From an uncultured Prevotellaceae bacterium (GTDB lineage: Bacteria; Bacteroidota; Bacteroidia; Bacteroidales; Bacteroidaceae), in the NCBI GenBank assembly GCA_900319225.1, contig ONNV01000008.1, positions 52,921 through 116,920 on the forward strand: 64,000 bases of DNA, in the 5' to 3' direction. The notes beneath the pieces were generated by a model. That model saw only the letters and a program-made list of their open reading frames with translations. It made no database searches and was not told the DNA's origin. Positions 28,917 through 46,422 of the stretch are shown here, piece after piece (the first letter of the stretch is position 1; every line of letters begins with the position of its first letter). The translations under genes and the position numbers were made by a program.

Positions 28917-29376
28917 CCTTAGGGAGCCATAACGCACGTAGGACCATTATCCTCCCTAAGGTGAGCTGAAAATACGCTTGTACCTGCGTTACCTCCTGAC
29001 CTTAGGGAGCTGTAGCGCACGTAGGACCATTTTCTTCCCTAAGGTGTGCCGTAAATACGCAATATCGCGGGCAACCCCCTGACCTTAGGGAGCCATAACG
29101 CACGTAGGACCATTTTCTTCCCTAAGGCGTGCCGTGAATATGCAATATCGCGGGCAACCCCCTGACCTTAGGGAGCTGTAGCGCACGTAGGGCCATTTTC
29201 TTCCCTAAGGTGAGCTGAAAATACGCTTGTACCTGCGTTACCTCCTGACCTTAGGGAGCCATAACGCACGTAGGACCATTTTATTCCCTAAGGTGTGCCG
29301 TGAATACGCAATATCGCGGGCTACCCCCTGACCTTAGGGAGCCATAACGCACGTAGGACCATTTTCTTCCCTAAGG
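28917..29376. repeat. Palindromic tandem array A, six units, 83-bp period
   Basis: Six 45-bp units start at 28917, 29000, 29083, 29166, 29249 and 29332. Each is bounded by the inverted 10-mers CCTTAGGGAG and, at the other end, variants of CTTCCCTAAGG or CTCCCTAAGG. The 38-bp spacers come in two types: type a (TGAGCTGAAAATACGC...) at 28962 and 29211; type b (TGTGCCGTGAATACGC..., CAATATCGCGGG) at 29045, 29128 and 29294. The array fills the gap between two convergent genes. The period is not a multiple of three and no ORF runs through. A copy in reverse orientation lies at 45963-46422. Confidence 0.95.
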
Positions 29377-29386
29377 TGAGGTTGCG

Positions 29387-29421
29387 TGAAAAAAAGAGGA
29401 TGACCCGGAGGCCATCCTCTT
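29387..29421 (-). terminator. Intrinsic terminator of the esterase gene
   Basis: A perfect 9-bp stem (29394-29402 with 29413-29421) followed on the minus strand by a T run (down to about 29389), seven bases past the esterase stop. Confidence 0.88.
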
Positions 29422-29427
29422 AATATC

Positions 29428-30567
29428 TTACTTTTTGAAAAGCATCGGAGCGAACTGATGCAGGGAGCGGCGCCAGGTGAGCCACTCATGGCCGGTGCCA
29501 GGTGACTCGTAATAGATGTGGTTGATGCCCAGACCCTCAAGAGCTACATGCAGGTCGTGGATGCCCTGGTACATGCCGGCGGGCTCATCGGTACCTATGG
29601 AGATGTAGAGCAGGTGATACTGGTCGTTGATGGACTTGGGATACATCTCGGCGTCACGACGGTCATTGGGACCGCGGCCCGATCCGCTGAATCCGCCAAT
29701 CCAACCAAACATCTCCGGATGGTCCAGACCGATGGTATATGACTGGAATCCGCCCAGTGAAAGGCCGCAGATGGCGCGGTTGTCACGGTCGGTCAGTGTG
29801 CGGTAGTTGGCATCAAAGTAGGGCACTATCTCTTCAACCATAACCTTCTCAAAAAAGGTAAAGTCAAACATGTTCTGACGGCCCCTTGCGTTGGGGTCAT
29901 TGGCAACGGCATGTTCCATGACTATGATCATGGGCTCGGCCTCCTTCTTGGCAATCAGGTTGTCCATGATGTTGCCCAGTTTACCCTGGGTGCCCCATCC
30001 GGTCTCATCCTCGCCGGCTCCGTGGAACAGGTAAAGAACAGGGAAACGGCGGTTGGGCTCCTTCTTATACTGAGGCGGCAGATATACCCAAGTGGTACGC
30101 TCGGCGCCTGTCAACTCAGACAGGTATTTTACGATCTCAATCTCACCGTGGGGAACTTTCTTTTCAAGATAATAGTCCACGCCGGCCTCGGGAACCTCAA
30201 TACCGCTCTGCCAATAATTTGAGCCGAAGAACTCCTTACTGTTGGGGTCCGATACGCGTTTGCCGTCAACATTCATGGTGTAGTAGTGGAATCCTACGAC
30301 CAGAGGATCGGTGGTAACCTCCCACATGCCGTCATCACCCTTTACAAGAGGGTAGTTCTTGCCGCCTACATTGACGGTAACGGTTTTGGCTTCAGGGAAG
30401 TCATTACGGAATGTCGCGCTAAGGTCCGGGTTGATCTTGGGATACTCGTGACCTTCAAGATTGGTTGTTGCACTTGTGGGCTTGGTCACTACGCCCACCT
30501 GATCCTGAGTTTTGCAGCCTGCAAGTACTGCTGCAAACAATAAGACTGAAATTAGGCTCTTTCTCAT
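29428..30567 (-). CDS. CE1/esterase-D type lipoprotein esterase
   Basis: 379 residues. Lipobox LAGC puts the lipidated residue at Cys18. An immunoglobulin-like E-set domain (about 45-125) precedes an alpha/beta hydrolase of the putative esterase family, as in feruloyl and acetyl xylan esterases. The nucleophile is in GLSLGGF (near residue 268) and the catalytic histidine in GTGHEW near the C-terminus. Likely surface removal of ester groups from plant polysaccharides. Monocistronic with its own promoter and terminator. Confidence 0.9.
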
Positions 30568-45919: not shown

Positions 45920-45925
45920 AATCTG

Positions 45926-45933
45926 CAAATATA
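45926..45933 (-). promoter_or_regulatory. -7 box for relA, leaderless geometry
   Basis: The minus strand reads TATATTTG, six bases before the ATG at 45919. No TTG lies at the -33 position. The repeat array begins 29 bases further out. Confidence 0.6.
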
Positions 45934-45962
45934 GACATTTTTCCACTCATTTGCCCTGCTCA

Positions 45963-46422
45963 CCTTAGGGAAGAAATCGCCCCCACCTGCGTTCCAGCTC
46001 CCTAAGGTGAGGGGGTAGCCCGCGATATTCCGTATTTCCCACCCACCTTAGGGAGAAAAATGGCTGTACCTGCGTTCCAGTTCCCTAAGGTGAGGGGGTA
46101 ACCCGCGATATTCCGTATTTTCCACCCACCTTAGGGAGAAAAATGGCTGTACCTGCGTTCCAGTTCCCTAAGGTGAGGGGGTAGCCCGCGATATTCCGTA
46201 TTTTCCACCCACCTTAGGGAGAAAAATGGCTGTACCTGCGTTCCAGCTCCCTAAGGTGAGGGGGTAACCCGCGATATCCCGTATTTCCCACCCACCTTAG
46301 GGAGAAAAATGGCTGTACCTGCGTTCCAGCTCCCTAAGGTGAGGGGCTCACCCGCGATATTCCGTATTTCCTGCTTACCTTAGGGACGAAAATGGCTGTA
46401 TCTGCGTTCCTGCTCCCTAAGG
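45963..46422. repeat. Palindromic tandem array B, six units, 83-bp period
   Basis: Units of 45 bp start at 45963, 46046, 46129, 46212, 46295 and 46378, bounded by CCTTAGGGAG and CTCCCTAAGG (or TTCCCTAAGG). All five 38-bp spacers are of one type (GGGGGTAGCCCGCGATATTC...), the reverse complement of spacer type b in array A, and unit interiors also match array A in reverse complement (AAAATGG...TGCGTT...). Total length, unit count and period equal array A. It lies between the divergent relA and sigma54-regulator promoters. First and last units are the most divergent. Confidence 0.95.

Follow-up and report, generated by a model that had tools for sequence, protein, structure and literature searches.

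BIME-like tandem arrays of palindromic repeats in an uncultured Prevotellaceae genome, probably dispersed by a divergent REP-associated tyrosine transposase

The DNA analyzed here (the window) is a stretch of 64,000 nucleotides from an uncultured Prevotellaceae bacterium and forms part of contig C12 of its draft genome, G000 (2.53 Mb). Within the window, two arrays of palindromic units, A and B, lie between the following genes:

28284..28916, plus strand: HAD-like hydrolase gene (Pfam PF00702), ending directly before array A
28917..29376, minus strand: array A, six 45-bp palindromic units and five 38-bp spacers, with units called to the base at 28917-28961, 29000-29044, 29083-29127, 29166-29210, 29249-29293, and 29332-29376; same-site arrays occur in relatives
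29428..30567, minus strand: putative esterase gene (PF00756), convergent neighbor of array A
43748..45919, minus strand: RelA/SpoT-type gene (PF04607, PF02824, PF13328), divergent neighbor of array B
45963..46422, plus strand: array B, six 45-bp palindromic units and five 38-bp spacers, with units called to the base at 45963-46007, 46046-46090, 46129-46173, 46212-46256, 46295-46339, and 46378-46422
46510..47724, plus strand: sigma-54 interaction-domain regulator gene (PF00158, PF02954), divergent neighbor of array B

Both arrays have the anatomy given in the original prediction, with six units of 45 bp and a total of 460 bp each and 83 bp from start to start in 10 of 10 steps. They also lie in opposite orientations as described: one asymmetric unit is read in the minus sense in A and in the plus sense in B. 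The nine-base arms CCTTAGGGA and TCCCTAAGG have 24 exact occurrences in the window, all within these two arrays. A blastn comparison of array B to phage and plasmid records gave no match. Arrays of this family sit between convergent, divergent, and co-oriented genes alike, in agreement with the earlier view that no single terminator or promoter role accounts for them. The same placement argues against a transcribed RNA element or terminator; although the units can fold, such an element is extremely unlikely, and the window has no match to Rfam at gathering scores. A repeat protein was also rejected, because 83 is not a multiple of 3.

The family is dispersed through G000. Exact units numbered 79, versus 0 for a reversed control pattern, so the units are not chance occurrences, and a looser finder applied to the stretches of G000 that were fetched detected 88 units in 19 arrays. 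These arrays contain 2, 2, 2, 2, 3, 3, 4, 4, 5, 5, 5, 5, 6, 6, 6, 6, 6, 8, and 8 units. Contigs C5, C7, and C8 end inside or just past such arrays, which bears on assembly; a contig break has probably split a single array into the one that closes C7 and the one that opens C5. Unit interiors had been predicted to agree within arrays, and this held genome-wide (identity of 0.801 within versus a mean of 0.687 between arrays, reached by 0 of 1,000 permutations); the accompanying idea of six units as a signature did not, given the range of 2 to 8 units per array. Interior identity was 0.891 within A and 0.840 within B but 0.666 between A and B. Because this similarity is no higher than that of average arrays, A and B are not the special matched pair originally proposed.

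When 179 different 83-bp periods, taken from G000 and its relatives, were combined in a profile, ACCTTAGGGA and TCCCTAAGGT were almost invariant, though the finder itself demands most of the arms, while the interior was asymmetric and partly conserved. The 38-bp spacer is itself largely conserved, so the true repeat is 83 bp long; a CRISPR array, for which unique spacers would be expected, was rejected on the same ground. Inverted arms alternate along the arrays with gaps of 27 and 38 bp, giving regular palindromic units in alternating orientation, the arrangement by which BIMEs are recognized. Array ends carry short spacer pieces on both sides (82 arrays). The hairpin of a unit has a long loop and several folding registers. 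The motif GT[AG]G, which forms the foot of canonical REPs, immediately precedes the stem in 0 of 88 units when the top strand is read and in 2 of 88 for the bottom strand, and it occurs in the bottom-strand loop of 65 of 88 units. Two spacer variants account for most of the linked columns within the 83-bp period, for which reason we do not claim an inner stem there.

Rather than scattered single units or a family confined to one assembly, which would have indicated a local duplication, searches of other genomes recovered periodic units, with a loose pattern present in 16 of the 37 genomes of the genus (G000 included) at 1 to 80 units each. Among the matches listed, all were 45 bp long, though 31 to 56 bp were allowed. 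The exact pattern, searched in 84,980 species genomes, was found in 63 stretches, all titled uncultured Bacteroidales, Bacteroidaceae, or Prevotellaceae, and yak, water buffalo, red deer, or horse appear in some of the titles. The sole pattern match in a viral collection was a single unit on a 19-kb contig (L136, 10648-10692), on which the looser finder, which also needs a similar interior, detected no unit. A literature search (titles and the beginnings of abstracts) returned no paper on this repeat family among the matches listed.

Many array sites are common to several species, with the same orientation to neighboring genes and different copy numbers; an exception is one two-unit array in G003 that is oriented the other way. 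At the array A site, relatives G031, G002, G029, and G032 have 2, 2, 2, and 3 units, respectively, versus 6 in G000, while the array is missing in 16 of the 20 other loci read, several of which also lack the HAD neighbor. Array B was not found at its site in any of the 29 other loci read, which came from 35 other genomes having the gene and of which 4 have only 280 to 430 bases upstream; only G000 has an array there. Occurrence thus pairs A and B no better than similarity does: B is without a counterpart in 29 of 29 other loci, and A has one in 4 of 20. In relatives at L169, L171, L174, and L179, the array B site upstream of the sigma-54 regulator holds other long elements with inverted-looking ends (e.g., GGACATCCGTTTTTGGGACC), and different repeat families appear to enter this gap. 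Perfect stems of at least 9 were not found in three of these other elements that were searched. Elsewhere, in G002 (L053, 4576-5361), a gene for a DNA/RNA non-specific endonuclease (PF01223) lies between two inverted arrays.

The sharing of sites and orientation by species at many loci would favor a second reading, in which the arrays are a host architectural or regulatory element, to which a nucleoid or helix-turn-helix protein binds along one face of the double-stranded DNA, and any associated transposase is a domesticated servant that keeps them. The restriction of array B to this genome and the absence of array A from most other loci speak against it. We return to this reading with the array periods below.

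A candidate for the enzyme behind the dispersal is encoded beside recA in G000, by a gene for a protein of 322 aa (C8:218011-218979) with a 6-unit array on one side and an 8-unit array on the other; recA and this gene together have three arrays around them. The protein matched the NCBIfam model REP_Tyr_transpos (NF047646) over residues 8 to 127 with an E value of 7.6e-7, below the cut-off (29.1 of the curated 80 bits), and likewise scored below the cut-off for Pfam PF01797 (15.5 of 23 bits). In a phmmer search of a PDB set up to an E value of 10, the sole match was TnpA-REP, 4er8 (E value of 0.062). An AlphaFold2 model (pLDDT of 88; pTM of 0.87) had as its best Foldseek match the same 4er8, TnpA-REP bound to a REP hairpin (E value of 1.2e-5), followed by the IS200/IS605-type transposases ISDra2 and IS608. 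All 19 of 19 aligned rows (the 322-aa protein included) share H50, H52, and Y107, with SNHVHF as the HUH motif and the tyrosine in AINYCLRNG; ~190 residues follow the catalytic region. From its sequence and model, the 322-aa protein is a distant REP-associated tyrosine transposase (RAYT) with a predicted HUH/Y1 fold and the catalytic His-His and Tyr. In a tree of 56 rows, it falls in a group of 36 (support of 100/99), separate from five PF01797-type proteins of its genus. An IS200/IS605 insertion sequence was rejected, as several transposase copies would be expected and G000 has only one protein match. The Y1_Tnp family as a whole was rejected as the array partner as well; it occurs in 23 of 37 genomes and, judged by eye, does not track the arrays. 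The divergent RAYT found between arrays, unlike Y1_Tnp as a family, does follow them.

G000 has a second RAYT, of the PF01797 type (C11). This gene is flanked by nearly perfect palindromes of ~80 bp (L052, 5901-5981 and 6843-6919), with further copies in the fetched stretches; a 26-bp piece matches window positions 17905-17930 (E value of 7e-4).

The clade nearest to the 322-aa RAYT in the tree has 10 members, six at 89 to 100% identity and one each at 62, 53, 52, and 48%. Palindromic units lie on both sides of the RAYT gene, within about 1.1 kb, in 10 of 10 members, and the array periods at these loci are 83 or 84 bp. Both flanking arrays run in the sense of the gene in all six genomes with a close ortholog (at least 89% identity). 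Arms differ by lineage: they are ACCTTAGGGA/TCCCTAAGGT at the RAYT locus of G000, ACGTTAGGGA/TCCCTAACGT at the 62% locus, ACGATAGGGA/TCCCTATCGT at the 53% locus, AGGATAGGGA/TCCCTATCCT at the 52% locus, and ATGTTAGGGA with TCCCTAACGT or TCCCTAACAT at the 48% locus. The core TAGGGA is kept, while the outer bases vary among ACC, ACG, ACGA, AGGA, and ATG types. The commonest arm pairs are complementary at 4 of the 5 RAYT loci compared. All ten arm base pairs form in 16 of 18 units in G000 and in 5 of 6 (62%), 5 of 9 (53%), 2 of 8 (52%), and 1 of 4 (48%) units at the other loci; the remaining units mostly have one mismatch.

Across the 37 genomes, the repeat type and the enzyme also tend to occur together. 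Exact GATAGGGA units number 40 in G018, 36 in G023, 7 in G021, and 0 in the 34 others; G018 and G023 are the two genomes with the RAYT matching this type, and no matching RAYT was found in G021. Exact CGTTAGGGA units number 18 in G001, 1 in G029, and 0 in the 35 others, so that all but one of the 19 lie in the genome carrying the corresponding RAYT. At least four units of the window type are present in all six genomes with a close ortholog versus 4 of 31 without one (P = 9e-5; P = 0.003 and 0.002 at limits of 1 and 10 units, respectively). Four incomplete assemblies (G002, G025, G034, and G035) have 13 to 18 units each and no matching RAYT found, and in G025 and G035 the tex-recA gap contains neither RAYT nor array. 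Together with G021, these four genomes count against strict dependence of the units on the RAYT; loss of the enzyme with the arrays left behind, or assembly gaps, are possible explanations. Repeat sequence follows RAYT lineage, with the units lacking a matching RAYT as exceptions.

Beyond the genus, an order-wide draw of 393 genomes gave matches in three at an E value of 1e-15, namely, G000 and two genomes of one genus in another Bacteroidales family. In this second genus, one or more matches at an E value of 1e-12 were found in 50 of 61 genomes; a genome has as many as seven, and some matches are fragments. The matches fall in two tree branches: part belong to the group of 36, and 15, with G044 and G404 represented among them, belong to a branch closer to the PF01797 types. 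Direct repeats across the RAYT-like gene were found in 18 of 29 loci of the second genus and inverted repeats in 13 of 29, versus 0 of 55 for each in control loci, which were taken around two other genes of the first genus rather than of the second; the other 11 of 29 loci had no direct repeat across the gene. A tandem array was detected by TRF on either side in 8 of 29 loci versus 4 of 55 controls. Arrays with periods of 52, 73, and 84 bp flank genes in G044 and G404, with inverted arms visible by eye. Of nine second-genus proteins, none passed the cut-off of the NCBIfam model for REP-associated tyrosine transposases (six below it, three without a match), whereas three passed that of Pfam Y1_Tnp, with three below it and three without a match. 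Two of nine scanned relatives had helix-turn-helix matches, all under cut-offs, in their C-terminal part.

These comparisons bear on whether the 83-bp tandem repeat is an ordinary minisatellite that owes its spread to recombination or passive duplication, the RAYT being a bystander among the arrays. Local expansion and shrinkage of arrays fit a minisatellite, as illustrated by the 2 to 3 units at the array A site of relatives, and so do the several array-bearing genomes in which no close RAYT was found. Such an origin does not account for the two-sided flanking of all 10 nearest-clade RAYTs, each lineage by its own arm type, for arms that stay while interiors drift (though the unit finder demands arms), or for the direct repeats across RAYT-like genes in another family. 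We therefore consider a minisatellite improbable.

The 83-bp period had been proposed to place all units on one face of the DNA, and periods near RAYT-like genes allowed this to be evaluated more broadly. In a first set, the periods were 51 to 54, 63, 69 to 73, 82 to 85, and 95 to 96 bp. A phasing hypothesis was fixed from 32 values (a period was obtained at 37 of 54 loci, and six near-identical loci were counted once) and applied to 100 new loci, of which 41 had a measurable period and 59 gave none. The preset test passed overall (u = 5.63; u = 3.47 for 18 clusters at 40% identity). However, the signal is carried by the 51- to 52-bp class (23 of 41), and without it the test was not significant (u = 1.16); with a strict score limit, applied post hoc and leaving 5 values, u was 2.35 without this class. 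Periods of the new loci outside this class include 58, 66, 69, 75, 77, 78, and 80 bp. Helical phasing is thus suggestive in the overall test on new loci but not established, the signal beyond the 51- to 52-bp class being nonsignificant. For the host element introduced above, the frequent periods of 51 to 54, 72 to 73, 82 to 84, and 95 to 96 bp near RAYT-like genes and the sub-cut-off helix-turn-helix matches in two of nine relatives are favorable, while the weak period signal of new loci outside the 51- to 52-bp class is not, and we judge this reading unlikely. Similarly doubtful is the bolder speculation that divergent Bacteroidales RAYTs, many of them missed by curated models, keep tandem arrays with periods of whole helix turns (about 5, 6, 7, 8, or 9), their C-terminal part binding double-stranded arrays on one face in addition to the cutting of single strands; arrays would then be assembly platforms and inversion points, as around recA.

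Arrays A and B were also proposed to let the 16.6-kb segment between them flip. Gene order and orientation between the two sites are the same in eight relatives read end to end (a ninth, G007, is incomplete), and the order in G000 is therefore the usual one. The extra length in G000 corresponds to three genes not found in these eight relatives:

30632-41753, between the esterase and peptidase genes: a 371-aa protein with a weak AraC-type helix-turn-helix, a 2,392-aa protein with GLUG/CUB matches, and an 840-aa C10 peptidase with a Spi-type inhibitor domain

A flip of the segment is unsupported by this comparison; since all eight relatives lack array B and could not flip in this way, their order is no test of flipping within the species. 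An invertible cassette with A and B as the ends of a switch is highly unlikely. Their opposite orientation would suit it, as would the differences around recA, which are compatible with recombination between inverted arrays, but sequence similarity between A and B is below the average for arrays.

When loci are oriented by recA, the order in G012, G031, G029, and G009 is tex, an array (in two of the four), recA, array, RAYT, array. As reconstructed, G032 reads as this order with recA turned between two inverted arrays, and G000 reads like G032 after the recA-array-RAYT block has been turned in a second step. Most other recA loci read have divergent tex and recA with no RAYT in view; tex and recA point in the same direction in G023 and G020, and five loci have no tex in view. 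From these sequences, recA seems to be inverted between arrays in two drafts, which agrees with recombination between inverted arrays, although the assemblies are drafts from uncultured bacteria, and arrays several hundred bases long are where assembly errors arise.

Taken together, the arrays are very probably REP-type elements in a BIME-like tandem arrangement, which the divergent RAYT encoded elsewhere in the same genome disperses and copies. The system is of a known kind, REP/BIME-like repeats with a RAYT, but its form is divergent and its tandem arrays are regular. The sequences and the protein model show array anatomy, dispersal, local homogenization, two-sided flanking of the RAYT, the match of RAYT lineage and arms, and the predicted HUH fold. 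On the strength of the fold, the anatomy, and the lineage match, we infer that the RAYT recognizes, cleaves, and copies the arrays, possibly in the following order. A stretch of array that becomes single stranded, e.g., in replication, would fold via the inverted arms ACCTTAGGGA/TCCCTAAGGT; the RAYT would recognize the folded array and cut and rejoin it by its tyrosine, and array copies would reach new intergenic sites. There, slippage or recombination between 83-bp periods may lengthen or shorten arrays and would thereby homogenize units inside an array, and inverted arrays may recombine and turn the intervening DNA around. The findings link a repeat family that had lacked an explanation to an enzyme overlooked by standard family models. 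Since enzyme and repeat change together within one genus, they offer natural matched and mismatched pairs for repeat recognition outside well-studied groups.

Tandem repeats are also found in Porphyromonas gingivalis, another member of Bacteroidales. Its BrickBuilt MITE/minisatellite resembles the present arrays in being tandem, intergenic, and present at 19 places in one genome but has 23-bp repeats without spacers and leader and tail ends, and the abstract names no RAYT (PMC4596501). In Pseudomonas fluorescens SBW25, clusters of REP doublets form forward and reverse arrays, some beside RAYT genes, much like those described here; compared by description rather than by sequence, REPINs there are mostly single, with few ordered clusters (16), whereas tandem arrays are the rule here (Bertels and Rainey 2011, as excerpted in PMC3116915). 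RAYT subclass 2.6 (group 5) likewise occurs in Bacteroidetes and has atypical flanking structures without the GT[AG]G consensus and copies elsewhere in the genome, according to parts of Quentin et al. 2018 (PMC6006769). Its motifs, as given in those parts, are WQ and YIH[QN]NP with an HuH-Y distance of ~82 aa, versus FD, Y-C/V-L-R/K-N, and 55 aa here, so membership in this subclass is not supported by motif sequence; the word "tandem" is absent from the text of PMC6006769.

The closest likeness in kind is to REPtrons, the TnpA-REP/RAYT genes with REP/BIME of the E. coli and Pseudomonas types, as generally known and as outlined in parts of PMC3733652 and PMC8266576. In both, an HUH/Y1 gene is flanked by palindromic repeats with copies dispersed between genes, and arms match transposase lineage; the alternating inverted half-sites with two fixed spacings are those of BIMEs. 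Unlike the palindromes of REPtrons in these accounts, those described here have no GT[AG]G foot, which is not fatal to REPtron membership because GT[AG]G is also missing in the published RAYT subclasses 2.6 and 3. Two further differences set the present system apart: the catalytic region of the enzyme is far from the Pfam and NCBIfam models and is followed by its long C-terminal part, and every array detected in G000 has at least two units at a regular 83-bp period.
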